Shown: in pieces, positions 1-20,862 of the stretch
Position numbering within the stretch: position 1 is the first letter of the stretch
Layout: each line of letters opens with the position of its first letter
NCBI RefSeq assembly: GCF_039830135.1
Contig: NZ_CP156081.1
Location: 4,110,818 to 4,174,817, forward strand
DNA from: Defluviimonas sp. SAOS-178_SWC
GTDB lineage: Bacteria > Pseudomonadota > Alphaproteobacteria > Rhodobacterales > Rhodobacteraceae
Length of the DNA: 64,000 nt
Direction of reading: 5' to 3'
Position numbers and translations under genes: made by a program
Notes under the pieces: model-generated
Database searches by the model: none
Told to the model about the DNA's origin: nothing
The model's input: only the letters and a program-made list of their open reading frames with translations

Positions 1-981
1 AGCTTTCCGTTCGCGATCTATGAAACGATCACGGGGAAGTTCGTCATCCCGCATCTTTTCGAAAAGATACCCGGCGTGACGAGCGTCAAGGACGTGAACT
101 ACATGCGGCGCATGGGGATGGACCGGGTGCAGTTCGTCTTCGTCCACCCGATTCACTACGGATTGTTCTGTTCGCTCGCACTTTCCGTCTATTTCATCGG
201 CTTGAGAGGCGTGATTTCCGGGTTCTGGCGCTGGATCGGGATGTTCATCATCATCGCGTGCTGCCTCATGTCGGTGTCGAGCGGCCCGTTCCTGTCGACG
301 ATGGCGCAGGTCGGACTGATTTTCTATGCGTTCTTGTTTCGCAACGTCGACCGGCGCTGGCTCTATTTCGGTCTCTTCTTCGCGTTCTCGTACACGGTCA
401 TCGAGCTCGGCTCCAACCGGCCCGGCATCGTCGCCCTGATGTCCCTGCTGACCTTCTCCGCCTCGACGGCGAATGTCCGTTTTGTCCTCTTCGAATATGG
501 CATGGCGCAGATTATGCGGACGCCGCTGTTTGGCATTGGGTTCCGCCAATGGGACCTGCCGTCCTGGATGACCGGCAGCATGGACAACTTCTGGCTTGGC
601 CTCGCCCTCATCTTCGGATTGCCGGCATTTCTGTTCATGTTCGGTGCCGTCGTCGCTGGTCTCGTCGGCATTGGCAAACGCGCCTTCAAGCCGGGCGGCG
701 TACTGTCGAATGTCCGGCTGGGATGGGGCATCATGCTTGTCAGCCTGACGCTCACACTCGCCACCGTCTATATCTGGAGCGAGGTCGCGTCGCTCACCAT
801 GTTCATGATCGGGAGCGGCGTCTTCTTGCTTCACGCACGGGAGGCCGACGAGGGAGACACGCCGCCGCCGGCCGAGGTCGACGGCCGGGCCGGGCCGACC
901 TATTCGCGGTTCGCGCCCGAAGTGTCACGCACGGCTTCCGCCCCGCCTGCGCGGCAACGGTTTGACAAGGGACGACGATGA
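1..981 (+). CDS. O-antigen ligase / EPS polymerase-like membrane protein (5' end outside window)
   Basis: Polytopic membrane protein that probably polymerises or ligates polysaccharide repeat units at the periplasmic face (Wzy/WaaL-type). The frame is open from base 1 through an internal GTG at 76, so the true start lies left of the window. At least seven hydrophobic segments are visible, with a Wzy-like extended loop (VHPIHYG near the start, then a GIGFRQWDLPSW segment) and a short charged cytoplasmic tail rich in Glu, Pro and Arg. It overlaps the next gene by ATGA at 978-981, so the two are translationally coupled in one EPS operon. The family is divergent in sequence; assignment rests on topology and neighbours. 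Confidence 0.7.
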   Translation, partial: SFPFAIYETITGKFVIPHLFEKIPGVTSVKDVNYMRRMGMDRVQFVFVHPIHYGLFCSLALSVYFIGLRGVISGFWRWIGMFIIIACCLMSVSSGPFLSTMAQVGLIFYAFLFRNVDRRWLYFGLFFAFSYTVIELGSNRPGIVALMSLLTFSASTANVRFVLFEYGMAQIMRTPLFGIGFRQWDLPSWMTGSMDNFWLGLALIFGLPAFLFMFGAVVAGLVGIGKRAFKPGGVLSNVRLGWGIMLVSLTLTLATVYIWSEVASLTMFMIGSGVFLLHAREADEGDTPPPAEVDGRAGPTYSRFAPEVSRTASAPPARQRFDKGRR

Positions 982-2054
982 AACCCGCGCTGTTCGCCAA
1001 CCGGTCGAACCTTCTCGACACGATCCGGGCCATCGCGGTGACGATGGTGGTGCTGTTTCATGTCGCCACCCGATACCCGGTGGCGGACCTCGACCTGGTC
1101 GCGCGGCAATTCCTGCGCTACGGATTCCTCGGCGTCGACATCTTCTATCCGCTCAGCGGCTTTCTCATCACCCGGTTCCTTCTCGGCCATAGCGAGCGCG
1201 GCTCGATCAAGGCCTTCTTCCTGCGCAGGTTGTTCCGGATCGTGCCGCTCTACGCGGTCGCGGTGACCATCTTCTTCTTCGCGGCAACCGTCATGCAGTA
1301 CGAGGCGGAAAGCCTAGACAAGATCTGGGTGACCTACCTCTTCCTGACCGGCTGGTTCGCCTTCTTCACCGGCCCGGACAGCATTCCGTACACGATCACC
1401 TGGTCGCTGTCGGTCGAGGAGTTTGCCTATATCCTTTTCGGCTTGTCCGCCTTTCTGCTGCGACGGTCGTTTCCGGCGATCCTCGTCTGCCTCGCCATCG
1501 CGCCGTTCGTTCTGCGTGTCTACCTATACGCAGAGGGGTATGAGAACATCTACTACTTCCCTCTCGCGCGGCTCGACAGCATCGCAAGCGGCGGGCTGGT
1601 GGCGGTGCTGATCGGGCGGGTGCGGCATCTCTGGGCACTGCTGGCAGCCGGAACGGTCGCCTCGATGCTGGTCTGGAAAGCGGGCGGGCCGGTCGGGTCG
1701 GCGGCGCTCTTCACGACGGTAACCCTTGCGACCTGCACCACGATCGCGGCCTGCGAGACGGTGCTCAGCGCCCTTCGCGGGCGGATCCTCGATGCGGCGG
1801 CGCGGGTCGGGCTTTATTCCTACTTCATCTACCTCTTCCACTTCTTCTTTCTTTACGCCCTCTTCATGGTGGTCGGAAAACTCGGCATCGCAATGCCGTC
1901 GTTCTGGATCATGGGGCTGTTGTGCATGGCGACAACCTATGTCGCGGCCTGGATCTCGTTCACCTGGTTCGAAGCGCCGCTGATGCAGTTCGGCAGGCGG
2001 CTTGAAAGGGGGGCGCCCTCCCGCCCGGTGATCGCCGAAGGGCAGAAGCCGTGA
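978..2054 (+). CDS. Acyltransferase family 3 (OafA/YrhL-like) membrane protein
   Basis: Predicted integral membrane O-acyltransferase that transfers acetyl or another acyl group to a sugar of the surface polysaccharide. The N-terminus LLDTIRAIAVTMVVLFHV matches the first conserved segment of the family, with the conserved Arg and His, followed by GVDIFYPLSGFLI and about ten hydrophobic helices. At 358 residues it has typical length for the transmembrane domain alone; no SGNH domain is fused. Instead a separate SGNH protein is encoded 41 bp downstream, so this pair may split the two domains that are joined in OafA-type enzymes (inference). The start overlaps the stop of the polymerase gene. 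Confidence 0.85.
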   Translation: MKPALFANRSNLLDTIRAIAVTMVVLFHVATRYPVADLDLVARQFLRYGFLGVDIFYPLSGFLITRFLLGHSERGSIKAFFLRRLFRIVPLYAVAVTIFFFAATVMQYEAESLDKIWVTYLFLTGWFAFFTGPDSIPYTITWSLSVEEFAYILFGLSAFLLRRSFPAILVCLAIAPFVLRVYLYAEGYENIYYFPLARLDSIASGGLVAVLIGRVRHLWALLAAGTVASMLVWKAGGPVGSAALFTTVTLATCTTIAACETVLSALRGRILDAAARVGLYSYFIYLFHFFFLYALFMVVGKLGIAMPSFWIMGLLCMATTYVAAWISFTWFEAPLMQFGRRLERGAPSRPVIAEGQKP

Positions 2055-2095: not shown

Positions 2096-2776
2096 ATGGG
2101 ACGGCGGGCGGCCCTTTTCATCCTGTTCGCCGCCACCGCGCTTGCCGTCATGGCGGCACTGTCCCGGCCCGGCGTCCCGCAAGATCGCGCATTGGCCCCC
2201 GGCCCGCGGGGAACGGGGCCGATCATCGTGGCGGTTCTCGGCACCAGCCTGACGAAGCGGGCAAGCTGGCCCGATCGTTTCGCAGGAGGTCTGAGCGAGT
2301 GCCTTGGCCGCGAGGTTCAGGTGACGAGGGTCGCCCGCGCCAACGCCAACTCGCGCTGGGGGCTTGCCGAGGCGGAGAGGGTGGCGGCGTCCCGACCAGA
2401 CCTCGTCCTCATCGAATTCGCTCTCGCAGATGCTGATCTGACCGACGGCGTCTGGCCCGGTGAGAGCCGATCAAACCACCGCGCGATCATCGAGGCGATC
2501 CGCGAACGGCGGCCGGATGTGCGGATCGTGCTCATGACGACCAATCCGGTCGGCGGGCTGCACCGGCTGAAGCGGGCATTCCTCGGCCCCTACTACCGCG
2601 TCTACCGCGATCTCGCGGACGAACTCGGCGCCGGCCTTCTGGACGCCTGGCCGCGCTGGCCGGGGACGGCGTCCATCCCCGACGGCGTTCACCCCGCGCC
2701 CGAGGCGGAGGCGCAGATTGTCGTCTCGCCGCTGCTGACGCTCGTCGCGCCAGGCTTCGGCGCCGTTTGCGGCTAG
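2096..2776 (+). CDS. SGNH/GDSL-family hydrolase, probable secreted or membrane-anchored esterase
   Basis: 226-residue protein with an N-terminal hydrophobic segment (residues 5-22), then an SGNH hydrolase fold. The nucleophile block is AVLGTSLT with Ser51, and the C-terminal catalytic pair is IPDGVHP with Asp196 and His199. The block III Asn is not obvious (EFALADAD occupies that place), so the oxyanion hole may differ. It follows the acyltransferase-3 gene by 41 bp in the same direction, suggesting acylation or deacylation of the polysaccharide. The ATG at 2096 has a poor Shine-Dalgarno sequence, so the start is moderately sure. Confidence 0.75.
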   Translation: MGRRAALFILFAATALAVMAALSRPGVPQDRALAPGPRGTGPIIVAVLGTSLTKRASWPDRFAGGLSECLGREVQVTRVARANANSRWGLAEAERVAASRPDLVLIEFALADADLTDGVWPGESRSNHRAIIEAIRERRPDVRIVLMTTNPVGGLHRLKRAFLGPYYRVYRDLADELGAGLLDAWPRWPGTASIPDGVHPAPEAEAQIVVSPLLTLVAPGFGAVCG

Positions 2777-3008: not shown

Positions 3009-5249
3009 ATGATCTCGCTATCTGCCGTGACACTCTACCTGAATCCCAAGCGGGCTTCCGGCCCCGGCCCCGCACCAGGCGCCGTGTCGCTCGCGGCGTT
3101 CAGCCGCGACCGGACGCTCTTCGACAGCGGCGCCGGCTTCGATCTGGCGATGGCCGACATTCCGCTTTCGGGCACCGGCACGGCGGGCGAGGTCGTGCAG
3201 GCGCGGGCGGTATCGCTTGACGATGGCGGCGCCACGACGACGGCATGGGTGGACGTCGCGACGGTTGACGGTGGCGGGACCTGGGCCGGGGCGATCACCG
3301 CACCGCGCAGTTCGTCCTGGTTCCGGCCCGAAGTGCGGCTGAAAACCCAACCCGCTGTCACGGCACAGGGCGCGAACCGGTTCGGCGTCGGCCATGTGAT
3401 CGCGATCTGGGGCCAGTCGGAGCCGGACCGCATCCTCTCGGCATTCTACGACAACACGCCTGCGCCGGCCGTCACCGACCCCGAGGCGGTGCAGGTCTTC
3501 GATGGCGCGGCGACCACGCCGGCGCGGCACTTCATCACCGACGCGCAGCCGCTGACCGCCGCCGTCGCCGCAATGGCCGCCACCTTCATTGCCGAACGGC
3601 CGGGCGAGAAATTCGCGGTCATCTTCCAGACGGTTCCCGGCAGCGATCCGCGCGGCCTCGTCAATGACGGCGATCTCACCCGGAACTGGGCCGACGACAA
3701 GGCCCTGCACGAATTCGCGACGGCGGACGGCCAGCATGTGGGCCTTGCGGCAATCTCCTGGTTCGCCTCGCCCGGCAGTTTCGGACTGAGCTATGGCGAG
3801 GCGATGTTCCCGCTGTTCGCCGGCCAGACGACCGCCGGAGTGCCAATCACCTTCCCGGCAACGATCAGCTACGGCACGGGCCTGAGCTATCAGGCCGATC
3901 ATTGGTTCGGCGAGCTCTACGATTATACCAGGACGCGGTGGGTGCCTTACGGGCCGCACCGCTTCGACATCGACGCCGACATGCGCGACGCGACCCACTA
4001 CGCCAACGGCAGCCAGCAGTTCAACCTCGTCAACAAGGAGGCCGTCCGCCAGAGCTGGCGCGACATGCTCGCCCTGCCCGCCGCGACGATGTTCCTGCCG
4101 CTGTCGATCGAACCCGTCACCTATGTGAACGGCTATGACGACGGCGCGGGCGGCTGGTCCGACTTCGCCCATCCCGCCGGCAATTCGGCTGATGGCACCT
4201 CGGCCTCGGCGCGGCTGACCGCCCACGCGGTGTTGCAATCGGCAGGGCTTTCCGGCTGGTCCGCACCGGAATTCGACGCCTGCCTTTGGGAGCCTTCCGG
4301 CGCCTGGGTGGAGGTCTGGTCCTCGGCCGGGCCGGTCACGACGACGCGGCTTGCGCGGGCCGAGGCGCCGATCGGGACGGCGCAGGCGCATTGGACCGAA
4401 GCGATGGGGTTCCAGATCAACGGTCTTCCGGCCAGAAACGCCCAGATCGTCGCGGGCCGGGTCCGGATCTTCCCGAACGGCGGCAGTTTCACCCATGCCG
4501 ATGCGATCCAGTATGGCGAGGGCGGGGCGACCGGCATGATCGCCTTTCCGGAAGATTTCTTCGCGGAGACATGGAAGAACCTCCCGATCGTCGATGTCGG
4601 TGCGGCGGGCCTGAACGGCGTGCCGGTGCGACCGCTCGCCGACCCCGCGGTGCTGGCCAACACCCTTCCCGCAGCAGCGCCGAGTTTCACGACATCGGCC
4701 ACCGGGCCCTACTTCCTGAATCCGATCAACGTGCCCGCTGGCGTGTCGGCCATCACCTTTGCCGGCCGGTTCCGCTTTTCCCTGCCGACCAACACGACCT
4801 ACATCCTCTTTTCTCAGACCAGCACCGGCTTCGACGTGGAATTGATGAACACCGGCAACCTGCGGGTCACGATCGAGGACGGGACCGGCGCCAAGATGCT
4901 GTCGTCGAGTATCATCTCGACGGCGTTGGTTTCCGGGGTCTGGTACGACATCGTCTGTTCGGCGGATCAGGTTGCCAATGTCCTGCGGGTGGCGATCAAC
5001 GGAACACTTGTGGCCACGGTCCCGTTCACCGCCACCGGCAACGGTCTTTTCCAGAGCAGCCGGGCGATCGGCTTCCTCGGGCGAAACACCGGCACACTGC
5101 AATATCTCGGGGATGTGGAATACCTGCGCGCCTGGTACAGCGCCACGACGACCGGCGCCCCCCCGGCCGCGACACCCTTCAAGGAGATCCTGGGACCGGC
5201 AACCGTCGCCAATGCCGACCTATGGAAGCTTGGGGCCGACGCCGTTTAG
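3009..5249 (+). CDS. SGNH-like plus lectin-like protein, candidate head-spike fibre / capsule-binding esterase
   Basis: 746-residue protein with no signal peptide or membrane segment. Residues 1-120 look like a beta-rich N-terminal module. Residues 128-360 resemble an SGNH/sialate-O-acetylesterase fold, with VIAIWGQSE giving a nucleophile candidate Ser137 and MRDATHYANGSQ giving Asp327/His330. The last ~200 residues read as a concanavalin/LamG-like jelly-roll (AITFAGRFRFSLP, WYDIVCSADQ, LRVAINGTLVATV, AIGFLGRNTG, VEYLRAWYSA). Lack of an export signal argues against an ordinary secreted esterase. The facing gene at 5360-5620 belongs to the spike-base family of the Rhodobacter GTA; in R. capsulatus the base and fibre of the capsule-binding head spike are adjacent genes. 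I infer a spike-fibre role, unproven. A hairpin terminator follows. Confidence 0.6.
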   Translation: MISLSAVTLYLNPKRASGPGPAPGAVSLAAFSRDRTLFDSGAGFDLAMADIPLSGTGTAGEVVQARAVSLDDGGATTTAWVDVATVDGGGTWAGAITAPRSSSWFRPEVRLKTQPAVTAQGANRFGVGHVIAIWGQSEPDRILSAFYDNTPAPAVTDPEAVQVFDGAATTPARHFITDAQPLTAAVAAMAATFIAERPGEKFAVIFQTVPGSDPRGLVNDGDLTRNWADDKALHEFATADGQHVGLAAISWFASPGSFGLSYGEAMFPLFAGQTTAGVPITFPATISYGTGLSYQADHWFGELYDYTRTRWVPYGPHRFDIDADMRDATHYANGSQQFNLVNKEAVRQSWRDMLALPAATMFLPLSIEPVTYVNGYDDGAGGWSDFAHPAGNSADGTSASARLTAHAVLQSAGLSGWSAPEFDACLWEPSGAWVEVWSSAGPVTTTRLARAEAPIGTAQAHWTEAMGFQINGLPARNAQIVAGRVRIFPNGGSFTHADAIQYGEGGATGMIAFPEDFFAETWKNLPIVDVGAAGLNGVPVRPLADPAVLANTLPAAAPSFTTSATGPYFLNPINVPAGVSAITFAGRFRFSLPTNTTYILFSQTSTGFDVELMNTGNLRVTIEDGTGAKMLSSSIISTALVSGVWYDIVCSADQVANVLRVAINGTLVATVPFTATGNGLFQSSRAIGFLGRNTGTLQYLGDVEYLRAWYSATTTGAPPAATPFKEILGPATVANADLWKLGADAV

Positions 5250-5273
5250 GACGGTGCGCAGCACCAAAAAAGA

Positions 5274-5295
5274 AGGGGCCGCGAGGCCCCTTTTT
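5274..5295. terminator. Bidirectional intrinsic terminator between convergent spike genes
   Basis: A perfect 7-bp stem AGGGGCC / GGCCCCT with a GCGA tetraloop is followed by a T run on the plus strand and preceded by an A-rich run (T-rich on the minus strand). It lies 24 bp after the 746-residue protein and can also stop transcription of the convergent small gene that ends at 5360. Confidence 0.8.
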
Positions 5296-5359
5296 CGTGC
5301 CGCTCTTTCGGCCCGCCGGGCGCGTGCCGGCATGCGTTAACGCCGGCGGCGGCTTTGCC

Positions 5360-5620
5360 CTACCAAAGCGCAACAATGCCGGCGGCGGTGGTCCCGGTTG
5401 CATTGACGCCTCTGGTCCGGATCGGGAGAACGCTGCCGGCCTGCACGTTCTGGAGCAGCACACTCTGGCCACCGGCCAGGCGGGCGGAGACGTCGCCGGT
5501 CTGACCGACGAAGAGCGCGCGTGGCAGCACCGGCAGGTCGGTCGCGTCATTCGGCACGACCGTTTGGGCGTCGCGCGCTGGTGCCGTGAGGCTCGTCGGG
5601 TAGTCGGAAAATTTGTCCAT
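5360..5620 (-). CDS. Spike base protein, Rcc01079 family (GTA/phage head-spike base)
   Basis: 86-residue protein that I recognise by pattern as the small spike-base family named after R. capsulatus Rcc01079: a leading DKFSDYPTSLTAPARDA, then NDATDLPVLPRALFVGQTGD and the closing AGSVLPIRTRGVNATGTTAAG. In R. capsulatus this family forms the base of the GTA head spike that binds the cell capsule. The ATG at 5620 is preferred because AGGA lies at good spacing upstream; the in-frame ATG at 5629 would put that AGG against the start codon. A much longer upstream extension of the frame is non-coding. It converges on the 746-residue candidate fibre gene, sharing its terminator. No other phage structural gene is present in the window. 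Confidence 0.75.
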   Translation of the reverse strand: MDKFSDYPTSLTAPARDAQTVVPNDATDLPVLPRALFVGQTGDVSARLAGGQSVLLQNVQAGSVLPIRTRGVNATGTTAAGIVALW

Positions 5621-5998
5621 CTTTCTCATCCTGATCGCCCTCGCCTCCGGCCCGCGGCGGCCGGGCGATCCGGCCGGGCTCCGCAATCCGGCGATGCGTG
5701 GGGGTTGCATGGCCAAGTTCGGGCGACCGACCCTCGCGGCGGGCACCCGAGCGCGGATTTTTGGGCAACGTGCATGAAGATCGGAACAAACAACCGCACG
5801 CTGAGCATTGTTTCCCACGAAGTGCGCGGGATTCACCCTGATCGGCGGAATCGTGCCGTTTTCCTTAACAATTCCCTTGGGGAACCCGGTGAATTCACCG
5901 TCCAGGACACATCGCAACTACAATTGTGCCCAATCTTTGCCATGTTGTCCCGCATTGTTCGGATTGTCGATACACTCGCGATGCGAAGGATAGCTGTT
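5621..5998. other. Divergent intergenic region between spike-base and beta-helix genes
   Basis: A 378-bp stretch without a credible gene. It should carry the promoters of the minus-strand spike-base gene and of the plus-strand beta-helix gene. The part from about 5850 to 5990 is clearly more AT-rich than its surroundings. I cannot assign -35 or -10 elements with confidence. Confidence 0.4.
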
Positions 5999-7759
5999 AT
6001 GAAACTTGCTCGCTCACTCGTCCTGCTCGGGCTGAGCACGGCTCTGTATGCGTCAGAGGCCAGTGCAACCGACTTCTTTGTCAAGGCCGTCACGGCTGGT
6101 CCCGTTACCGGTACTCCGTTGGCAATCGTCACCCTGCAGTCTGGCGAGACCACGACAACGGAATCCAAAGTGCTGGCGACGGGCAAGAACAAAACGTTCG
6201 AAAGCTCGTTGAAGCTAAAGACCGGGAAAGAGACCTCCGTCAGCGACCGGGCCGGGAAGTGGGTCACCGCGCCAAGCAAGACCGACACCAGCGGGACGTC
6301 AGGCGAGACGACAACTGTGGCCGAGACGCCCACGGGGTCCACGACCGAATCCGGAACGACGAGCGGATCGGGCACGGAAGGCGGCGCCACCACGACGACG
6401 TCAACGACAACCAGCGGCACCGGCACGGAGAGCGGCACGACCACCACGACAAGCGGCACGACCACCACCACATCGACAACGCCCACGACGACAACAACCC
6501 CCTCCCCAACGACCACAACTTCTACGACGACAACGACCGCGCCGGCCCCCACGACATCGCCGACGACCACGACGGGAACGGTTTGGGCGAGCTTCGATAC
6601 GCTGATGCAATCGGGGAAAGTCGCCGGCGGCGACCGGGTCTTCCTGATGGACGGGTATCATGGCGCCTTGGTGATCCGCGACATGAACTTCACCTCGCCG
6701 GTGGTGATCGCGCCGATGTCGGGTGCGGTGGCCCATGCCGATTCTATCCTGATCAGCAACTCTCACAACGTCTTCGTCCAGGGTTTGAAGGTCTGGGCAC
6801 GCTCGACGAATGCCGGTAACGGCGCGCTGGTGCGGTCCTATTCGAACAACAGTGACATTGCTTTCACCGACCTCGACGTTCGCGCCGTCGCCAACTCCGG
6901 CAACTACGCGCAGTGGACGCTGACCGACTGGACCAACAACCAGCGAGAGGGCATCCTCGCCGACGGGAACCGGGTCACCGTCGCCAGGAACCGGGTGACG
7001 GGGGTCTATCACGGCATTCAGGCTGCCGGTGCGAACGCGCTCGTCGAAGAGAACATCGTCGATGGCTTTTCCGGCGACGGCATGCGCGCACTTGGGGATA
7101 ATTCGATCGTCCGCCGCAACAAGGTGCAGAACTGCTACCAGATCAACGCGAACCATGCAGACGCGTTCCAGTCGTTCTCGCGCGGGGCGGGTGGTACGGC
7201 AGGCACCGGTACTGTTCGTGGCCTGACCATCGTGGACAACAAGTTCTTCGAATGGACCCTTCCCACCACCAACCCGCTGCGTTGCAAGCTTCAGGGCATC
7301 GGGATGTTCGACGGCATGTACGACAACGTGAAGATCCACAACAACGTGATCGCCGTTTCAGCCGGTCACGGCATCGCGCTCGCCGGCCCGCTGAACTCGA
7401 TCATCTCCAACAACACGGTGATCAACCCCGATCCGAACACCACCAACCGTTACCCCTGGATCCGGATTTCGCCGCACAAGAACGGGACGCCGCCGAAGAA
7501 CGTGGTGTTCGCCAACAACATGACGATGGCGCTGTACGTGTACAACAACGCGACGAACAATGTGTCCGAGACAAACAACATCATCGTGACCAACGCCTCG
7601 AACGAGTTCAACTCGGTCTCAAATCGGGACTTCACGCTCAAGTCCACCTCCAAGGGCGTCGATGCGGGTGATCCGGCCTATGCGCCCGGAAAGGACATCA
7701 CCGGCGCAGCCCGGCCGAAGGGCAAGGCGCCTGACGCAGGGGCATACGAGAACTTCTGA
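5999..7759 (+). CDS. Secreted right-handed parallel beta-helix protein with Thr-rich linker
   Basis: 586-residue exported protein. A signal peptide covers residues 1-23 (cleavage after ASEASA). A beta-type segment up to about residue 95 is followed by a Thr/Ser/Gly linker (97-194) and a right-handed beta-helix domain (about 205-586) with repeated NNXV/NXI turns such as VTVARNRVTGVYHGI, ALVEENIVDGF, SIVRRNKVQN, VKIHNNVI and SIISNNTVI. This fold is shared by pectate lyases, alginate lyases and C5-epimerases, so the protein may cleave or modify the locus polysaccharide; the exact reaction cannot be read. The ATG at 5999 has AAGGA 8 nt upstream and begins the signal peptide. The frame stays open far upstream to 4286, but that part overlaps another gene out of frame. 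A terminator follows. Confidence 0.8.
   Translation: MKLARSLVLLGLSTALYASEASATDFFVKAVTAGPVTGTPLAIVTLQSGETTTTESKVLATGKNKTFESSLKLKTGKETSVSDRAGKWVTAPSKTDTSGTSGETTTVAETPTGSTTESGTTSGSGTEGGATTTTSTTTSGTGTESGTTTTTSGTTTTTSTTPTTTTTPSPTTTTSTTTTTAPAPTTSPTTTTGTVWASFDTLMQSGKVAGGDRVFLMDGYHGALVIRDMNFTSPVVIAPMSGAVAHADSILISNSHNVFVQGLKVWARSTNAGNGALVRSYSNNSDIAFTDLDVRAVANSGNYAQWTLTDWTNNQREGILADGNRVTVARNRVTGVYHGIQAAGANALVEENIVDGFSGDGMRALGDNSIVRRNKVQNCYQINANHADAFQSFSRGAGGTAGTGTVRGLTIVDNKFFEWTLPTTNPLRCKLQGIGMFDGMYDNVKIHNNVIAVSAGHGIALAGPLNSIISNNTVINPDPNTTNRYPWIRISPHKNGTPPKNVVFANNMTMALYVYNNATNNVSETNNIIVTNASNEFNSVSNRDFTLKSTSKGVDAGDPAYAPGKDITGAARPKGKAPDAGAYENF
6287..6580 (+). repeat. Thr-codon low-complexity tract (protein linker)
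   Basis: About 98 codons dominated by ACN (Thr) with Ser, Gly and Pro, forming ACGAC/ACCAC-type imperfect short repeats. It encodes the flexible linker between the N-terminal part and the beta-helix domain of the exported protein. Such tracts are prone to slippage and length change between strains. Confidence 0.85.
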
Positions 7760-7824: not shown

Positions 7825-8694
7825 TCAGAACTCGCCCCCGAACGCCTGGCGAAACATCCATGCTGAGCGCAGGAGGCGGAGCCGGATCAGCACCACAGCG
7901 CCACGGAACCGCTCCCCGCTACCGGAGAGCTTCGGGCTGAAAAGCAGCCTGGGAAGATGGGCCGGCGCACTCGCCGCCATCGCGACGGCGCGCAGCGCCC
8001 ACCGCAGGCGCCCGCCACCGTCATGTGCGGCCAGATGCAGGCCATGCATCTCGCGCGCGATACGGCGCCACTTGCGTTCCAGCGCGGGCCAGTCCGATCG
8101 GGTCGGATGGGCAACGCGGAGCGTTTCGTCCAGCACCAGACGAAAGCCCTTCGCCCGGGCGCGCTGGCACCATTCCGCATCTTCGGAAAGGCCGTTGATG
8201 AAGGGGCCGACCGCGTCGAAGACGGCCCGCGTCGTTACAAGGTTCGCGGTCACCGAGAAGCCTTTTTTCTCGATGTATTCCTTGTAGTTGAAGGCAAAGA
8301 CCGTTTCAAACGCCTCAGCGCCGGAGCGTGGCGGCGGCGTTTCGTCGAAGACGTCAATCGCACCCCCGATGATATCGGCCCGGCCACAGGCGCGTTTCGC
8401 CGCAGCCAGCCAGTCCGACGCCGGGACGCAGTCGGCATCCAGGAAGATCAGGCCATCCGCACTGCTTTCCCGGACGCCCCGGTTTCTGGCCAGTGCAGCG
8501 CCCTTGCCGGGCTCCGACACGAAACGGACCTGGGGAAACTCCGCCTTGACGGCGTCGATCGGTTCGCTCGATCCGTTATCGACGACGAGAATGTCGACGC
8601 CACTGGTGTCAGCTGCGGTCAGGGCGGTCAGGCAACGACGCAGCCGCGCGACATCGTTGTAGTGCGGGATGATGACGACGTGATCGGCGCTCAT
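7825..8694 (-). CDS. Glycosyltransferase family 2
   Basis: 289-residue GT-A fold glycosyltransferase adding a sugar to the EPS repeat unit at the cytoplasmic membrane face. The nucleotide-sugar motif VVDNGSS (residues 37-43), the metal-binding DADC (86-89) and the later GLSEDAEWCQRA acidic motif are all present. The C-terminal ~80 residues are Arg-rich and amphipathic, consistent with membrane association. Start taken at the ATG at 8694 (MSADHVVIIPHYN), which directly begins the Rossmann strand; an upstream ATG at 8874 would add 60 unconserved residues without a Shine-Dalgarno sequence. It stands alone on the minus strand, convergent with the beta-helix gene. Confidence 0.85.
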   Translation of the reverse strand: MSADHVVIIPHYNDVARLRRCLTALTAADTSGVDILVVDNGSSEPIDAVKAEFPQVRFVSEPGKGAALARNRGVRESSADGLIFLDADCVPASDWLAAAKRACGRADIIGGAIDVFDETPPPRSGAEAFETVFAFNYKEYIEKKGFSVTANLVTTRAVFDAVGPFINGLSEDAEWCQRARAKGFRLVLDETLRVAHPTRSDWPALERKWRRIAREMHGLHLAAHDGGGRLRWALRAVAMAASAPAHLPRLLFSPKLSGSGERFRGAVVLIRLRLLRSAWMFRQAFGGEF

Positions 8695-9016
8695 GCGTGG
8701 TTTGATTCCCCATTCGGCGAACCAGTCCTGCCATGGCGCGGGCGCCGAACTGAACCCCAAACGGGGCGCCGCGAAACGATGGTTGCTTTTTGGACCTATA
8801 GGTGAGCAATCGCGCAACAATATTCGTATCCAAATCGGCAACGATTTCCGCATGAAGCGGTAACATTTGCGCAAATCTGAAACAGAATCATCTTAAGGTT
8901 GAGTTTCGGGGAATGTGGAAAAAAAAAGGCGTGCATATGTTCCAATGAGGGTAAAACGTGATACAAGTATCGCTATGGTAATTTGTACCGGCTGATTTTG
9001 ATGTGAAGGGGTGGAA
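8695..9016. promoter_or_regulatory. Divergent intergenic region with two small inverted repeats
   Basis: A 322-bp region between the minus-strand glycosyltransferase and the plus-strand VPLPA-CTERM gene. It holds an A9 run near 8925 and two neighbouring inverted repeats, GATAC-AA-GTATC at 8960-8971 and GGTA-ATTTG-TACC at 8977-8989, about 30 bp before the start of the exported protein. These could be operator or promoter elements; no known operator consensus was recognised. Confidence 0.3.
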
Positions 9017-9682
9017 ATGCTTGGGATGAAATGGTGCGCAGGGGCCATCGCGGGCTTGGCACTTGCGGCGGGCGCCTCGGTGGCGAACGCCTATGTTATT
9101 GATTTCACGGATTCGTCGACCGGGACATCCGGGACGCTTTTCCAGGGCACCGTGTCGTGGACGCTCACCTCTAACGGCATCCTGAACAACTCGCAGAGCT
9201 TCGATGGCACTTCGACGCCCTCCGGCACCGGCCTGTCTTTCGAGACAGACGGCTACGGTGTGGGGGCGCATGACGACGAAATCACGACTTCGCCGATGCG
9301 CCAGGAATGGATCGAGCTCACCTTCAGCGCTCCAGTGCTTATCGACGCAATCTACTTCCTCGACCTGTTCGTCTCTCCGGACCGTTCTTCGGTCGAAGTT
9401 GGTCAGGCGTCGATCAACGGCGGCAACCCGCTTCTGACGTTGACTGCGACCGATGTCGCACGCACTGGTGCGCCTGGTTTTGTCGGAGCGACCTTCGCGC
9501 CGATCTACGCCACAGTCATCCGCTTCACCGTGCTCAGCTCCAATGATAGCTTCGGCTATGCCGACGGCGCGCTGGCGGGTGTGGGTATCGCCCCGATCCC
9601 GGTTCCGGCCGCGGGCGCCCTGCTCCTTGGCGGTCTCGGTGGTCTGGCGGCTCTGCGCCGCCGCCGTCGCAAGGCGAACTGA
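9017..9682 (+). CDS. VPLPA-CTERM-type exosortase substrate protein
   Basis: 221-residue exported protein. Residues 1-24 are a signal peptide ending in ASVANA. The body is beta-rich and Thr/Ser-rich. The C-terminus has the three-part sorting signal of exosortase substrates: the short motif IPVPAAG, a hydrophobic helix (ALLLGGLGGLAAL) and a basic tail RRRRRKAN. This is the VPLPA-CTERM arrangement known from Rhodobacterales, cut by exosortase XrtD, which is encoded about 10 kb downstream. The ATG at 9017 is chosen over GTG at 9011 because GAAGGGG sits at good spacing. The protein body is of unknown function, likely a matrix or surface protein. A terminator follows. Confidence 0.8.
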   Translation: MLGMKWCAGAIAGLALAAGASVANAYVIDFTDSSTGTSGTLFQGTVSWTLTSNGILNNSQSFDGTSTPSGTGLSFETDGYGVGAHDDEITTSPMRQEWIELTFSAPVLIDAIYFLDLFVSPDRSSVEVGQASINGGNPLLTLTATDVARTGAPGFVGATFAPIYATVIRFTVLSSNDSFGYADGALAGVGIAPIPVPAAGALLLGGLGGLAALRRRRRKAN

Positions 9683-9766: not shown

Positions 9767-10591
9767 TCACCCGTAGGTGCCGTAGCTGTAGCCCACGGAA
9801 TCGTCGGCATAGCGGCACTTGTTCAGGACCACGCCGAGCACATTGGTCAGCTGCGCCAGTTCCTTCTCGCAGATGTCGATGTTCGGGAGCGTCGTGCTTT
9901 CCGCGGCCGCAACGAGAAGTGCGCAATCGACGTTGCCGAGGAAGCCGACATTGTCGTCGCTCGCGAGCATCGGCGACATGTCGAAGATCATGATGTCCGG
10001 CTGCCAACGCCGCTCGATCTCGTCCAGCTTCTCGCGGGTGGAGGCACTTTGCAGAAGCTCCGCTGGATGCCGGCTCGCGGCGCTGTTCATGCAGACGATC
10101 AGGTTCGTGCCGATCCGGACCGCGATATCGTCGAATGACGCGTTGCCGTCGAGCACCTCGTGGAACGATGCGGAGAGACTGTGCCCCAGCGTCTTGTGCA
10201 AGGCCGGACGCCGCAGGTCGAGGTCGATCAGCATGACCTTGAGGTCTTTCTGCCGCGACAGGCTGAGCGCCAGATTGATGGCAATCGTGGTCTTGCCGCA
10301 GGCCGCACCGGGCGAGGTGATCGCCAGACGGCTCCAGCCCTTCTCTTTCATCTGCCGGATCGTGCGCGAACGGAGCATGTCGTAGGGCGTCGCGTCCTTG
10401 CCTCCGGACAGCGCCGTGATGCGGTGGCGGAGCGCGGTGCCGGACGATACCGTGATCTCGCGCAGACCTTCCCAGGAAGCGGCCCCGCGTCCGGCTTTCT
10501 GGACGACGTTTTCCCGCACGGTTTCCGGCGCCCCGAGGGCCGCCTTGCGCATCTCCCGCGCCTTGGCCAGTGCGGCTTCAAGCTTTTCCAT
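9767..10591 (-). CDS. Tyrosine-protein kinase / CpsD-type EPS autokinase
   Basis: 274-residue cytoplasmic P-loop protein of the bacterial tyrosine kinase family that works with a Wzz-type membrane partner to control EPS chain length and export. The Walker A region is SPGAACGKTT (residues 93-102) and the Walker A' motif is LIDLDLRR (121-128). A Tyr-containing tail (YSYGTYG) at the extreme C-terminus fits an autophosphorylation cluster. The kinase is separate from the chain-length protein encoded 43 bp upstream in the same operon, as in XrtA-type EPS loci. Confidence 0.85.
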   Translation of the reverse strand: MEKLEAALAKAREMRKAALGAPETVRENVVQKAGRGAASWEGLREITVSSGTALRHRITALSGGKDATPYDMLRSRTIRQMKEKGWSRLAITSPGAACGKTTIAINLALSLSRQKDLKVMLIDLDLRRPALHKTLGHSLSASFHEVLDGNASFDDIAVRIGTNLIVCMNSAASRHPAELLQSASTREKLDEIERRWQPDIMIFDMSPMLASDDNVGFLGNVDCALLVAAAESTTLPNIDICEKELAQLTNVLGVVLNKCRYADDSVGYSYGTYG

Positions 10592-10634
10592 CGTTCCCGT
10601 TACCCCTGCGCATACTTTTGAACGTCAGCCGCTG

Positions 10635-12170
10635 TCACAGCCGGATGCCGAACTTCGCCGCCACCTTGCCGACGATAATGTCGAGCGGAAGGTAGTAAAC
10701 GTGAACGGCATAAATAATCGCCGGAATGCCGACGACGGCGACCAGCAGCAACGCGGCGAACCCGGACCGCCGCATCATCGTTTCAGAAGGCGTGCGCATG
10801 TAGGGGATCGTCGCGATCGGCGTGATGCCGAACGTCTTGATGAGGTCCTTCGGCCGCCGCACCGCGCGGTTCAGAAGCTCCAGAAGGATGATCACGCCAA
10901 TGCCGAGCGCCGCGCCGGAAAAGATGCCGCCACCTGCGATCAGAATCCGGTTCGGGCTCGACGGGCGGTCGGGGACTGTCGCTGCGTCCACGACCGAAAT
11001 GCGCTCGCCCTTGGAACGGATCTCGATCTGCTCGCCCGCGGCTGCCTGCGCCTGTCGGGCCACGGCGGTGTTGTACTGCTGCTGGATGTTCGCATAGTCG
11101 CGGTTCAGCGCGTCGAGCGCGACCTGGTTCGCGGGCGTGCGGTCGATCGAATCCTTCAGGACGGCAAGCTGGTCGATCAGCTGCAGGCGCTGTTCTTCGA
11201 GGATCTGGATCCGGGTATCGAGGTCGGCGATCTGCACGTCGAGCATCGTCGCAGCGGGATTACCGGTCGTATCCGGCGGCAACTGCGCCTTCACCACCTC
11301 TTCGAGCTGCGCGATCTGCAATTGCAGCATCTTCACCTTCGGGTTCTCCGGGGTGAAAACGGCGAGCATGCCGTTCAGTTGCTGACGCAACTGGTCGAGT
11401 TGCCTGGCCTCCGGCGTCTGGTTTGCGGTTGCGGCGGCATTGACCTGGCCGGTCGAATTGAAGATCGCGATCATCCGCGCCTTCTGGTCCTTCAGCGTGG
11501 CGATATCGCGCTCAGCCGTCGCCAGCCGGTCCTGCAGCAGCGTCTGCTGGCTCAGCCGGAAGTTCAGGGTGTTCGGCAGCGCGTCGGCATTCTTGTTCTG
11601 GAAGTCGAGAATCTTCTCGCTCATGATGTCGATCTCGCCCGACAGCCGCTTCACTTCCTGATTGAAGAACTCCAGCGTGTCCTCGGCGCGGCCCGTCCTG
11701 ATCTCCACATCGGCATTCAGGATGAGTGTGACGTATTCATTCACCACGCCCGCCGCGATCCGCCCGGTTTCGCCGTCGAAGGCGATGGTCATGATTGTCG
11801 CCGCCCCACGTCCGGCATTCTTGCCGATGCGCGTGTTCTGGCGCATCCCCCGTACGATGTCGTCCGGGGACATTTTCGGCATGTCGCGGAACACCTTCAG
11901 CTTCTGGGCAATCTCCAGAAGGTTGGCGCGGGTCATGAGTCGGTTCTCGATCGTCTGGAGCTTTTCCAGCGCCTGCGCCTGCACCGTGGGGGCCGCGAGT
12001 GGGCCGGGAATCTGCGAGGATTCGACTATGAGCACCGAGTTCGCGGTATAGACCGCCGGCAGCAGGAAAGCCGCGGCGATGGACCCTGCCGACACCAGCG
12101 CGAAAATGATGACGAAGTAATGAAGCCGCCGCAGGAAGACAGCAAAGTAGAAAGACAGGTCCAGGTTCAT
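10635..12170 (-). CDS. Wzz/GumC-type chain-length determinant protein
   Basis: 511-residue polysaccharide copolymerase of the inner membrane. Transmembrane segments lie at about 17-37, 409-432 and 470-490, with a long periplasmic coiled-coil region (roughly 170-400) between the first two. The periplasmic part begins with AVYTANSVLIVESSQIPG, typical of Wzz domains. It lacks a fused kinase; the kinase is the next gene. The extra third membrane segment fits the XrtA-associated chain-length family better than classic Wzz. The start overlaps the upstream ATPase stop by 4 bp (12167-12170). Confidence 0.88.
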   Translation of the reverse strand: MNLDLSFYFAVFLRRLHYFVIIFALVSAGSIAAAFLLPAVYTANSVLIVESSQIPGPLAAPTVQAQALEKLQTIENRLMTRANLLEIAQKLKVFRDMPKMSPDDIVRGMRQNTRIGKNAGRGAATIMTIAFDGETGRIAAGVVNEYVTLILNADVEIRTGRAEDTLEFFNQEVKRLSGEIDIMSEKILDFQNKNADALPNTLNFRLSQQTLLQDRLATAERDIATLKDQKARMIAIFNSTGQVNAAATANQTPEARQLDQLRQQLNGMLAVFTPENPKVKMLQLQIAQLEEVVKAQLPPDTTGNPAATMLDVQIADLDTRIQILEEQRLQLIDQLAVLKDSIDRTPANQVALDALNRDYANIQQQYNTAVARQAQAAAGEQIEIRSKGERISVVDAATVPDRPSSPNRILIAGGGIFSGAALGIGVIILLELLNRAVRRPKDLIKTFGITPIATIPYMRTPSETMMRRSGFAALLLVAVVGIPAIIYAVHVYYLPLDIIVGKVAAKFGIRL

Positions 12171-13551: not shown

Positions 13552-14241
13552 ATGACGTTGCAGATCAATGACCTTTCCGATGATTTTGGCATGGCAAGCG
13601 CTCCGGTGGGTCTTGTGAACGTTTCGGACCGCCGGGGATTCTACCGGAATTACATCAAGCGGGTATTTGACGTCGCCGCCGTTCTGCTGGCCAGCATCAT
13701 CGTCGTTCCGGTCATCGGCGCGCTCGCGATCCTCGTCGCCCTCGACGGTTCTGCGCCGTTCTACTGGAGCGATAGAGTCGGACGGCGCGGGCGGACATTC
13801 AGGATGCTGAAGCTGCGGACGATGGTGCCGCAGGCGGATCGCCTTCTCGAGGAATATCTTTCGCGCAACGCCGAGGCTCGGCTGGAATGGAACAGCACCC
13901 AGAAGCTCAAATCCGATCCCCGGATCACCAAGGTCGGCAGGTTGCTCCGCAAGACGTCGCTCGATGAATTGCCCCAGCTCTGGAATGTTCTGATCGGCGA
14001 CATGTCGCTGGTCGGGCCGCGGCCGATGATGCCGAACCAGAGGGCGCTCTACAGCGGGATCGCCTACTACGCGCTCCGGCCCGGGATCACCGGGCCCTGG
14101 CAGGTTTCGGACCGAAACGAGTCCGAATTCTCCAAGCGCGCCGAATTCGACCGCGAGTATGACGAAACCCTATCGTTGGCGGCCGACGTGAAGCTGCTCT
14201 TCGCCACGATCAGGGTTGTCGTCAAAGGCACAGGTTATTGA
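13552..14241 (+). CDS. Undecaprenyl-phosphate sugar phosphotransferase (ExoY/WbaP C-terminal type)
   Basis: 229-residue monotopic membrane enzyme that starts EPS repeat-unit synthesis by moving a sugar-1-phosphate from a nucleotide sugar to undecaprenyl phosphate. One hydrophobic re-entrant segment lies at 41-63, followed by the conserved KLRTM (87-91), DELPQLWNVLIGDMSLVGPRP (138-158, given here as the family signature region) and RPGITGPWQVS (176-186). The length is that of the minimal ExoY type without the N-terminal five-helix domain. ATG at 13552 is preferred because GGAG lies upstream; a TTG at 13513 would add 13 residues. Confidence 0.9.
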   Translation: MTLQINDLSDDFGMASAPVGLVNVSDRRGFYRNYIKRVFDVAAVLLASIIVVPVIGALAILVALDGSAPFYWSDRVGRRGRTFRMLKLRTMVPQADRLLEEYLSRNAEARLEWNSTQKLKSDPRITKVGRLLRKTSLDELPQLWNVLIGDMSLVGPRPMMPNQRALYSGIAYYALRPGITGPWQVSDRNESEFSKRAEFDREYDETLSLAADVKLLFATIRVVVKGTGY

Positions 14242-16950: not shown

Positions 16951-17586
16951 ATGTTTAGAGCCCTGCTGGGCCTTTTTCTGGCCGTTCTTCTCGTTCCTGC
17001 TGCGTGGGCCCAAAGCGGCTATCGCATCCAGCCGGGTGACGTGTTGCAGATGGAGGTCCTGGAAGACCCGAGCCTCAACCGCAGCCTTCTCGTTCTCCCC
17101 GACGGCAGGGTGAGCCTGCCGCTCGTCGGCACGGTGCGCGCCTCGGGCCAGAGCGTCGAAGGTCTGCGCAACGCGATCTCGTCCGCGCTCGCGCCGAATT
17201 TCGCGTCGCCTCCGACGGTGTTCCTGTCGGTTGGCCAGCTGAACCCGGTCACGTCGGCCGTCAACACCGCGGTGGCGCAGGCCGCCGCCGCGAATGTCGC
17301 GACCTACGGCACGGTTGCTGTCTATGCCCTTGGCGAAGTGACCAATCAGGGCCGGGTGGATGTCAAGACGGGCACGACGCTTCTTCAGTTCCTGGCCGAA
17401 AGCGGCGGCCTGACCCGGTTCGCGGCCACCAAGCGGATTCAGCTGCGCCGTCCGGATGCGAAGACCGGGACCGAGACGGTCTACAAATACAACTACAAGG
17501 CCGTGCAGGCTGGCGCCAAAGCACCGGTGATCGTGTTGCGTGAAGGCGATGTGATCGTGGTACCGGAGCGCAAACTCTTCGAATAA
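16951..17586 (+). CDS. Wza-like polysaccharide export protein
   Basis: 211-residue periplasmic/outer-membrane export protein with a signal peptide (1-20, cleavage after AWAQ or AWA). The polysaccharide export domain starts at GYRIQPGDVLQMEV, and an SLBB-like domain follows (VAVYALGEVTNQGRVDV, LLQFLAESGGLTRFA). It lacks a lipobox Cys and the long C-terminal helix of Wza, as in the short exporters of exosortase-associated EPS loci. ATG at 16951 (GGGAT upstream) begins the signal peptide; the frame is open to 16876. A barrel-protein gene follows after 12 bp. Confidence 0.87.
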   Translation: MFRALLGLFLAVLLVPAAWAQSGYRIQPGDVLQMEVLEDPSLNRSLLVLPDGRVSLPLVGTVRASGQSVEGLRNAISSALAPNFASPPTVFLSVGQLNPVTSAVNTAVAQAAAANVATYGTVAVYALGEVTNQGRVDVKTGTTLLQFLAESGGLTRFAATKRIQLRRPDAKTGTETVYKYNYKAVQAGAKAPVIVLREGDVIVVPERKLFE

Positions 17587-19260: not shown

Positions 19261-20862
19261 ATGACGCAGTCGACCAGTCCTGACCAAAGCGCCGGTTTCC
19301 CGGTGGGTGTCATTCGCCCGGCGGGTCTTGGGCTTTTCGTCCTTCTTCTCATCGCATCTCTGCCCATCTTCTGGATCGGCTTCGTCTCGCTCGCGCAGGC
19401 CTGGTCGACGGCGGAATACAGCCACGGTCCATTGATCCCGCTGATCTCGCTCTACCTGTTCCTGCGCGAACAGCGGCGGATGCCTCTTCCCGAAGCCGGG
19501 GCACGCTTGCGCTGGCCCGGCCTTCTGGTCATCGCCGGATCCCTTGCGCTTGCCGCCCTCGGCAACCTGATGCGGGTGCCCGACATTGTCACCTACGCGT
19601 TCATTCTCTGGGTCTCTGGCGTGGTGCTGACGATCTTCGGCTGGGATCGCGGCCGCCGGCACCAGTTGCCGGTCTTTCACCTGATCTTCATGCTGCCGCT
19701 GCCGCAAATGCTTTACTGGAAGCTGACGATCTTCCTGCAGTGGGTGTCCTCGGCGCTCGGCGTCTGGTTCGTCAGCCTCGCCGGTGTGGCTGTCTATCTT
19801 GAAGGCAACGTGATCGACCTCGGCATCTACAAGCTTCAGGTGGCCGAGGCCTGTTCGGGCCTGCGCTACCTCTTCCCGATCCTGAGCTTCTCCTACCTCT
19901 TCGCGATCCTCTATCGCGGGCCGTTCTGGCACAAGGCCGTGCTTCTCCTCTCGGCGGCACCGCTTACCGTCCTGATGAATTCGGTCCGGATCGGCATCAT
20001 CGGCATCCTTGTCGACCGCTACGGGATCGAACAGGCGGAGGGCTTCCTGCACTTCTTCGAAGGCTGGGTGATCTTTCTCATCTGCGTCGCGATCCTTTTC
20101 GGCATGGCGATGGCGTTGCAACGCCTGACGCCGAAGCCGATGCCGCTGGCCGAGGCGATCGACCTCGATTTCGAGGGTTTCGGCGGTATCCTCGCACGCG
20201 TCCTCGCGATCCGCGCGGCGCCCGCACTGGCGGCGGCCGTCATCCTGACCGGCGCCGCCTCGACCGCCTGGCATACGCTGCCGGCACCCGAAGCCGTGGC
20301 GCCGGCGCGCGATCCGCTGCTGCTGTTTCCGCGCAATGTCGAGGGTTGGCAGAGCTACACCGTCGATCTGGAACCGGATGTGGAGCGGGTTCTGGCCGCC
20401 GACGATTACCTCAATGCCTTCTACCAGAAGCCGGGCGAACGCAGCGTGGTGAGCTTCTTCGTCGCCTGGTATGCCAAGCAGACCGAAGGCCAGGGCATCC
20501 ACTCGCCCGAAGTTTGCCTGCCGACCGGCGGATGGGAAGTGTTCTCGCTGGAGGAAGTGCCGCTCGACCTCGACGCGGTCGGCTACGGAACCTTCCGCGC
20601 GAACCGGGCCGTGATCCAGAAGGGGTTGTCAAAGCAACTCGTCTACTACTGGTTCGAGGGGCGCGGCAAACGCGTGGCCAACGACTTCCGCGCCAAGCTG
20701 AGCGTGCTGACCGACAGTCTGACGCTCGGCCGGACTGACGGAGCACTCGTCCGCTACGTCACCCCGATCGAGGCGGACGAGACCGAAGCCGATGCCGAAG
20801 CGCGGCTGAAAAGCTTCATGTTGCTGAGCCTCGCCAACCTGTCGCGCTACGTGCCGTTCTGA
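19261..20862 (+). CDS. xrtD: Exosortase XrtD with C-terminal EpsI domain
   Basis: 533-residue polytopic protein. Residues 1-285 form the exosortase membrane domain with the proposed catalytic residues Cys198 ([10 protein letters not shown]), Arg243 (MNSVRIG) and His264 (LHFFEGW). After a further membrane helix (about 318-335), residues 345-520 are an EpsI domain with [12 protein letters not shown] (His414, Cys419). This fused form is what is known for the VPLPA-CTERM exosortase XrtD. It cleaves the C-terminal sorting signal of exported substrates at the inner membrane; one such substrate is encoded at 9017-9682. The 177-bp gap upstream may hold its own promoter. Confidence 0.88.

Follow-up and report, generated by a model that had tools for sequence, protein, structure and literature searches.

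A putative gene transfer agent head-spike gene pair beside exopolysaccharide genes in Defluviimonas sp. SAOS-178_SWC

The window analyzed here is a stretch of 64,000 nucleotides (nt) from Defluviimonas sp. SAOS-178_SWC (contig NZ_CP156081.1, positions 4,110,818 to 4,174,817). Near its start, two convergent genes, one encoding a 746-amino-acid (aa) protein (3009-5249, +) and the other an 86-aa protein (5360-5620, -, part of a longer open frame), are embedded among genes for exopolysaccharide building. The initial annotation had proposed that they form a head-spike pair of a gene transfer agent (GTA), and both reading frames were found in this convergent arrangement. For the counts given below, genes were called with our own caller, which placed some starts wrongly, including its start for the 746-aa protein.

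By sequence, the 86-aa protein belongs to the spike-base family of the Rhodobacter capsulatus GTA (RcGTA), as the initial annotation held. It matches the profile NF048002 ('spike base protein, RCAP_Rcc01079 family') over its full length (positions 1-85 of 85), with 110.8 bits against a curated cut-off of 28, and further matches were obtained to phrog_12296 (E 8e-22), the solved Rcc01079 chain 6tb9 (E 1.1e-9) and the phage spike base 8cjz (E 2.4e-6). It is the sole clear copy in the genome, the next-best match having E 0.14. In R. capsulatus, Rcc01079 forms a jellyroll pentamer at the capsid vertices, as described from cryo-electron microscopy in passages of PMC7296036. A candidate N-terminal signature separating GTA-type from phage-type bases was dropped, as it matched a single base in each group (1 of 37 linked to polysaccharide genes, 1 of 22 others).

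The 746-aa protein was modeled with AlphaFold2 (AF2) at a mean predicted local distance difference test (pLDDT) score of 90, with pLDDT below 50 for residues 1-16. The predicted fold combines a SIAE-type esterase with a LamG/pentraxin-type lectin, in line with the SGNH-like core and lectin-like C-terminus proposed previously. Residues about 23-548 share their fold with the carbohydrate acetylesterases XAC1771 (7kmm), CE20 (9ega) and SIAE (8f9p), with 9-14% identity in the aligned parts, and the model has catalytic-type Ser and Asp/His residues; G135-Q136-S137 and D385..H388 are invariant. The only Pfam family found in the protein is PF13385; SASA (PF03629) was not matched, and six tested relatives matched no Pfam family, so that the esterase assignment is one of predicted fold and not of SASA family membership. 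Sequence searches with the protein gave no match in the PDB, none in NCBIfam and a single weak match (E 0.37) in PHROGs. No signal peptide was seen at the N-terminus (MISLSAVTLYLNPK...), judged by inspection with no predictor run, in agreement with the lack of an export signal claimed before. The ratio of nonsynonymous to synonymous substitution rates (dN/dS) is 0.088 for the base (window versus genome G012), and for the fibre 0.158 (window versus G012), 0.085 (G001-G002) and 0.115 (G001-G006); over the compared spans, both genes are under purifying selection.

The N-terminus of the 746-aa protein provides a candidate peg for docking into a base pentamer. In Rcc01080, the RcGTA fibre, passages of PMC7296036 describe an N-terminal peg of alternating hydrophobic residues, IALGLGLGL, that forms a star in the base pentamer. 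The window protein starts with MISLSAVTLYL, relatives start with MFSLSLSL and MINLLGLGL, and a plasmid-borne relative (pSC52_6, 33% identity) starts with MLIGLGLGM. Among 105 full-length relatives, 56 fit a loose peg pattern and 26 a strict one. The loose pattern was also found in 16 of 39 same-strand genes located just downstream of bases from other genera, versus 17 of 769 other genes of these loci and 4 of 307 control genes; this count covers the 54 of 59 loci in which the base is followed by a gene at no more than 250 nt; in 15 of these, that gene is on the opposite strand, and none of the 15 has a peg by the called start. Given these pattern counts, the peg reading is good for the class and no more than suggestive for the window protein.

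Base and fibre are associated across genomes. In 17 of 22 genomes of the same genus, the window's included, the two genes lie side by side and point towards each other; the base is present in 21 genomes and the fibre in 19. In G006 and G007 the fibre lies at a contig end, and the only base match in G007, at 35%, is a distant one located on a different contig. In a family sample of 394 genomes, roughly one from each genus, 15 carry the fibre (E<=1e-10) and 139 the base (E<=0.001; 138 above the cut-off). All 13 fibre carriers from other genera (E<=1e-10) encode the base, compared with 137 of 392 genomes overall (hypergeometric P 8e-7, relatedness not corrected). At most two fibre candidates were scored per family genome, so that fibre relatives may be undercounted; homologue set A1 consists of 74 taken of 192 found (120 listed). 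Judged from coordinates and the gene table, the genes are neighbours in 6 of the 13 carriers (G147, G151, G275, G317, G319 and G324, the gene of the last having an internal stop) and at least 3 kb apart or on separate contigs in G107, G263, G270, G302, G351 and G385; the base position in G138 is not listed. In G263, about 90 kb separate the fibre relative (L131:15819-17999) from the spike base, and the relative, too, has polysaccharide-type genes beside it.

From the adjacency, the N-terminal tail, the esterase-lectin body and the co-occurrence with the base, the 746-aa protein is best read as the spike fibre, which agrees with the role first suggested for it. It could instead be a cellular polysaccharide-editing esterase that lies close to a spike base incidentally, as the carbohydrate esterase fold, the conserved catalytic-type residues and the location among polysaccharide genes, with other SGNH and acyltransferase genes adjoining, would suggest. 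However, the lack of a signal peptide by inspection, the base in every one of the other-genus carriers, the peg-like start of the plasmid relative and a similarly built gene adjoining the base in Thioclava make this explanation very unlikely.

The genes surrounding the pair have the composition of an XrtD-type exopolysaccharide locus (Table 1): in addition to exosortase XrtD, they include sugar transferase, export and chain-length genes, these three scoring below the NCBIfam cut-offs. The expected setting next to polysaccharide-building genes thus holds, with Wzy-like, acyltransferase, GDSL, family 2 glycosyltransferase (GT2), Wzc-like/tyrosine kinase, sugar transferase and Wza-like genes besides XrtD. 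The acyltransferase could possibly O-acetylate the polysaccharide. Related species (L037, L041) have a variable form of the beta-helix gene next to the spike base or lack it.

Table 1. Features of the head-spike and exopolysaccharide locus and of the GTA cluster (window positions unless a locus is named)
Feature	Position	Strand	Evidence
Wzy/O-antigen-ligase-like polymerase (frame open to window start)	76..981	+	PF04932 2.2e-6, below gathering score
Membrane acyltransferase	978..2054	+	PF01757 1.4e-21
GDSL/SGNH hydrolase	2096..2776	+	PF13472 8e-16
Putative head-spike fibre, 746 aa	3009..5249	+	Adjacency, co-occurrence with base, AF2 fold
Disordered N-terminal tail of fibre, residues 1-16 (MISLSAVTLYL...), candidate peg for base pentamer	3009..3056	+	pLDDT <50
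Carbohydrate acetylesterase/SIAE-like fold of fibre, residues about 23-548	3075..4652	+	Predicted structure
LamG/pentraxin-like lectin domain of fibre, residues about 553-746	4665..5246	+	Predicted structure
Head-spike base protein, RCAP_Rcc01079 family, 86 aa	5360..5620	-	NF048002, phrog_12296, 6tb9, 8cjz matches
Right-handed beta-helix protein, choice-of-anchor Q	5981..7759	+	PF13229 8.5e-9; NF041518 34.5 bits vs 25
Family 2 glycosyltransferase	7825..8694	-	PF00535 2.5e-20, scanned as 7825-8874; shorter start from gene caller
VPLPA-CTERM protein	9011-9682		TIGR03370 29.2 vs 25.35
Tyrosine autokinase + Wzc-like chain-length protein	9767..12170	-	TIGR03018 3e-28, TIGR03007 8.7e-62, both below cut-offs
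Undecaprenyl-phosphate sugar transferase	13552..14241	+	TIGR03022 9.5e-76, below cut-off
Wza-like exopolysaccharide export protein	16951..17586	+	TIGR03027 1.8e-25, below cut-off
Exosortase XrtD (VPLPA-CTERM)	19261..20862	+	TIGR04152 677.6 bits vs 400
GTA megatron gene lacking first 518 codons	L054:14549-17356 (C2 about 1617048-1619855)		

The base family is also found in phages (relatives in 85 phage records), one base is in a locus that by inspection looks like a prophage (L047), and the window genome encodes a second, more distant HK97-type capsid at C2:3889058 (38% identity), so that the pair might decorate a prophage or helper-phage capsid instead of a GTA. We consider this quite unlikely, given that the pair is adjacent in most genomes of the genus (17 of 22) and has host polysaccharide genes beside it in all eleven same-genus loci (of 17) for which 20-kb surroundings were examined. 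Furthermore, when the 20 proteins encoded between positions 76 and 24803 were scanned against PHROGs (E<=1e-5), 10 families were matched and only that of the spike base ('tail fiber protein') is named as a phage structural part, four being of no known function and the others including, for example, O-acetyltransferase, DNA transposition and ParA-like families; as to the claim that the pair has no other phage gene around, no further gene named as a phage structural part was thus seen in this interval. Finally, a search of 50,697 phage records returned no match to the fibre, which speaks against a prophage spike and, as discussed below, is also a difficulty for a GTA spike.

Linkage of the base to polysaccharide genes recurs outside the genus. 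Polysaccharide-type genes were found within 9 kb of the base in 37 of 59 loci from other genera compared with 1 of 20 control regions (Fisher 4e-6), and two or more such genes in 31 of 59 versus 1 of 20; the sole positive control region (L131) contains its genome's own fibre relative. The 59 loci are the best-scoring among the base matches listed, one per genome, and not a random draw, and the control regions come from 20 of these 59 genomes. G158 and G063, within the score range, were not included, and G022 and G032 were examined and left out of the count, an omission that does not favour the linkage because both looked polysaccharide-linked by inspection. Of the 35 reference proteins behind the 9-kb count, 29 were taken from seven plasmid loci opened for a base or fibre relative, five are window proteins and one is from the test locus L061, so that the figure of 37 in 59 leans towards genes of the plasmid-locus type. 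Pfam provides a library neutral in this respect, at the level of families only: among 108 neighbour proteins, it identified GT2 (6), hexapeptide (5), GT1 (4), GT4 (4), UDP-sugar dehydrogenase (3), epimerase (3) and sulfotransferase (3) families, none of which is among the 25 listed (of 179) families of 108 control proteins, which were scanned out of 120 sampled. The base is also encoded by 27 plasmid records; of the seven examined, six (Roseobacter litoralis, two Rhodovulum, Sulfitobacter, Roseivivax and Roseinatronobacter) have it among annotated polysaccharide genes; on the seventh, from Thioclava, a YjbH-domain gene is found at a distance of some 6 kb. An eighth record (SC52) was examined for its fibre relative.

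An RcGTA-type cluster, for which the initial annotation had suggested a check, with terminase, portal, protease, capsid, tail tube, hub and a DUF2793 protein, is located elsewhere in the genome (C2:1602500-1622400), and its megatron gene is incomplete. The gene starts at codon 519 of its relatives, with about 1.5 kb missing between short similar stretches; the other GTA genes that were compared can be aligned to their counterparts in a relative at full or nearly full length. The cluster is followed by a serine acetyltransferase gene (L054:18439-19248); cysE1 is reportedly linked to GTA function in R. capsulatus. Altogether, the cluster is damaged in 4 of the 22 same-genus genomes, all four of which keep an open fibre gene: besides the window genome, G001, G006 and G007 (L164, L163 and L165) lack most of it and have one common deletion junction, in which the start of the terminase gene is joined to the end of the megatron gene, open as a single 810-aa frame in two of the three. 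That three species have it in common points to a hotspot for deletions or, alternatively, to a deletion allele that recombination has spread.

This pattern of damage raises the possibility that the pair is a relic, or has been repurposed where the GTA is broken, for example as a free decoy or as an enzyme set free by lysis that loosens the slime. The open fibre genes and the low dN/dS between G001 and G006 could be adduced for this. However, in trees, G001 groups with the intact G002 and G007 with the intact G005, and the megatron tree places G006 next to G001 and G002 (for G006 and G007, a single host gene contributed data). The losses in G001 and G007 look recent, the low dN/dS may predate them, and the retained fibre genes therefore do not demonstrate a GTA-free role; we regard such a relic or new use as unlikely. 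An old GTA loss with a kept spike was not accepted, two of the three deleted genomes lying beside intact sisters.

The interpretation that we favour, and hold to be likely, is that the pair encodes the head spike of this genome's RcGTA-type GTA, recognizing the exopolysaccharide made by the surrounding locus. Five copies of the base would sit on each capsid vertex and hold one fibre by its unstructured N-terminal tail. The lectin and acetylesterase domains would recognize, and perhaps de-acetylate, the exopolysaccharide of the XrtD-type locus, so that particles freed by lysed cells would stick to sister cells bearing the same polysaccharide.

Several observations weigh against this interpretation. 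Because of the truncated megatron, spike function is doubtful in the window strain, whose GTA is probably damaged, and the spike system may idle here while working in relatives; in the three genomes with the large deletion, the fibre gene remains open, yet most of the GTA cluster is gone. In the family sample, 14 other genomes have a GTA_TIM match, and in only 2 of them is a base recognizable, so that such GTAs do not always come with this spike; within the genus, G011, G015 and G021 carry a base without such a fibre. In these three genomes (L033, L036, L038), the base is kept right behind the tyrosine kinase gene. The fibre has no match (E<=1) to RcapMu58, the phage relative of Rcc01080, nor, as noted, in phage records, and its start is degenerate, fitting the loose peg pattern and not the strict one. 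No promoter motif common to the GTA and the spike was found: no 8-mer occurs in more than 30% of both the 20 base-gene and the 16 GTA-cluster upstream regions, and the 8-mers common to both sets are mostly G+C-rich.

Covariation within the genus is likewise unfavourable. Fibre distances track those of host genes (r 0.72-0.74) and not those of polysaccharide genes, with partial Mantel r of 0.03 for Wzy (10 genomes) and of 0.04, 0.07 and -0.22 for the glycosyltransferase, Wzc and tyrosine kinase (12 genomes each), none of them notable. A single outlier was observed, G008 versus its sister G020, with 58% for the fibre, 40% for Wzy and 88% for host genes. This lack of covariation speaks against fine allele matching. 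The suggestion in the initial annotation that receptor and ligand are inherited together is therefore retained as a recurring gene linkage (37 of 59 loci), whereas the allele-level counterpart, tested within the genus, was not seen.

It is still debated why bacteria retain GTAs. Should the ligand regularly be passed on along with the receptor genes, gene exchange would be directed towards kin or towards cells with the same polysaccharide, and the proposed enzyme-plus-lectin fibre could both hold and remodel the slime. More tentatively, and with the balance of probability against it, the GTA spike ligand and the polysaccharide receptor locus might constitute, across Rhodobacteraceae, a linked, partly plasmid-borne, greenbeard-like module that steers DNA exchange to cells with the same slime, the two moving together so that a change of slime keeps a matching spike.

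Hemagglutinin-esterases combine a lectin with an esterase and are reported to attach reversibly, and the window fibre recalls them in build, by analogy only. Among the acetylesterases, the similarity to XAC1771, CE20 and SIAE is one of predicted fold at low identity. In phage RcapMu, the spike base RcapMu57 is directly flanked by RcapMu56, encoding a SASA acetylesterase, with RcapMu58 also present, but this is a phage genome and the esterase is a separate 443-aa protein with no match to the 746-aa protein; the esterase gene (L168:1133-2464) directly precedes the base gene. On a plasmid of Thioclava sp. FTW29 (L157), the base is followed by a 757-aa protein with SASA and LamG domains, but the arrangement is same-strand and this protein, too, has no match to the window fibre at E<=1.

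The closest known system is the RcGTA spike, whose genes Rcc01079 and Rcc01080 (GhsA/GhsB) lie beside the capsule genes rcc01081-01086, according to passages of PMC10218006. The window pair resembles it in the base family, the adjacency of base and fibre, the lack of linkage to the main GTA cluster and the location beside surface-polysaccharide genes (as described in parts of PMC10218006 and PMC7296036). It differs in that the fibre has 746 aa with esterase and LamG domains versus 325 aa, the genes converge, and the polysaccharide locus is of the exosortase XrtD type. The likeness of the fibre to Rcc01080 holds for place and build; at the sequence level, no likeness to its phage relative RcapMu58 was found. 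Since a linkage of head spike and capsule has been published for R. capsulatus, the kind is already known; among openly licensed PMC papers, no report of spike-polysaccharide linkage beyond this species was found. Where one species had been reported, the count made here, with a control, spans 59 further genomes, each from another genus, and what is new is the esterase-lectin fibre, the XrtD-type polysaccharide system and the recurrence counted across genera and plasmids.

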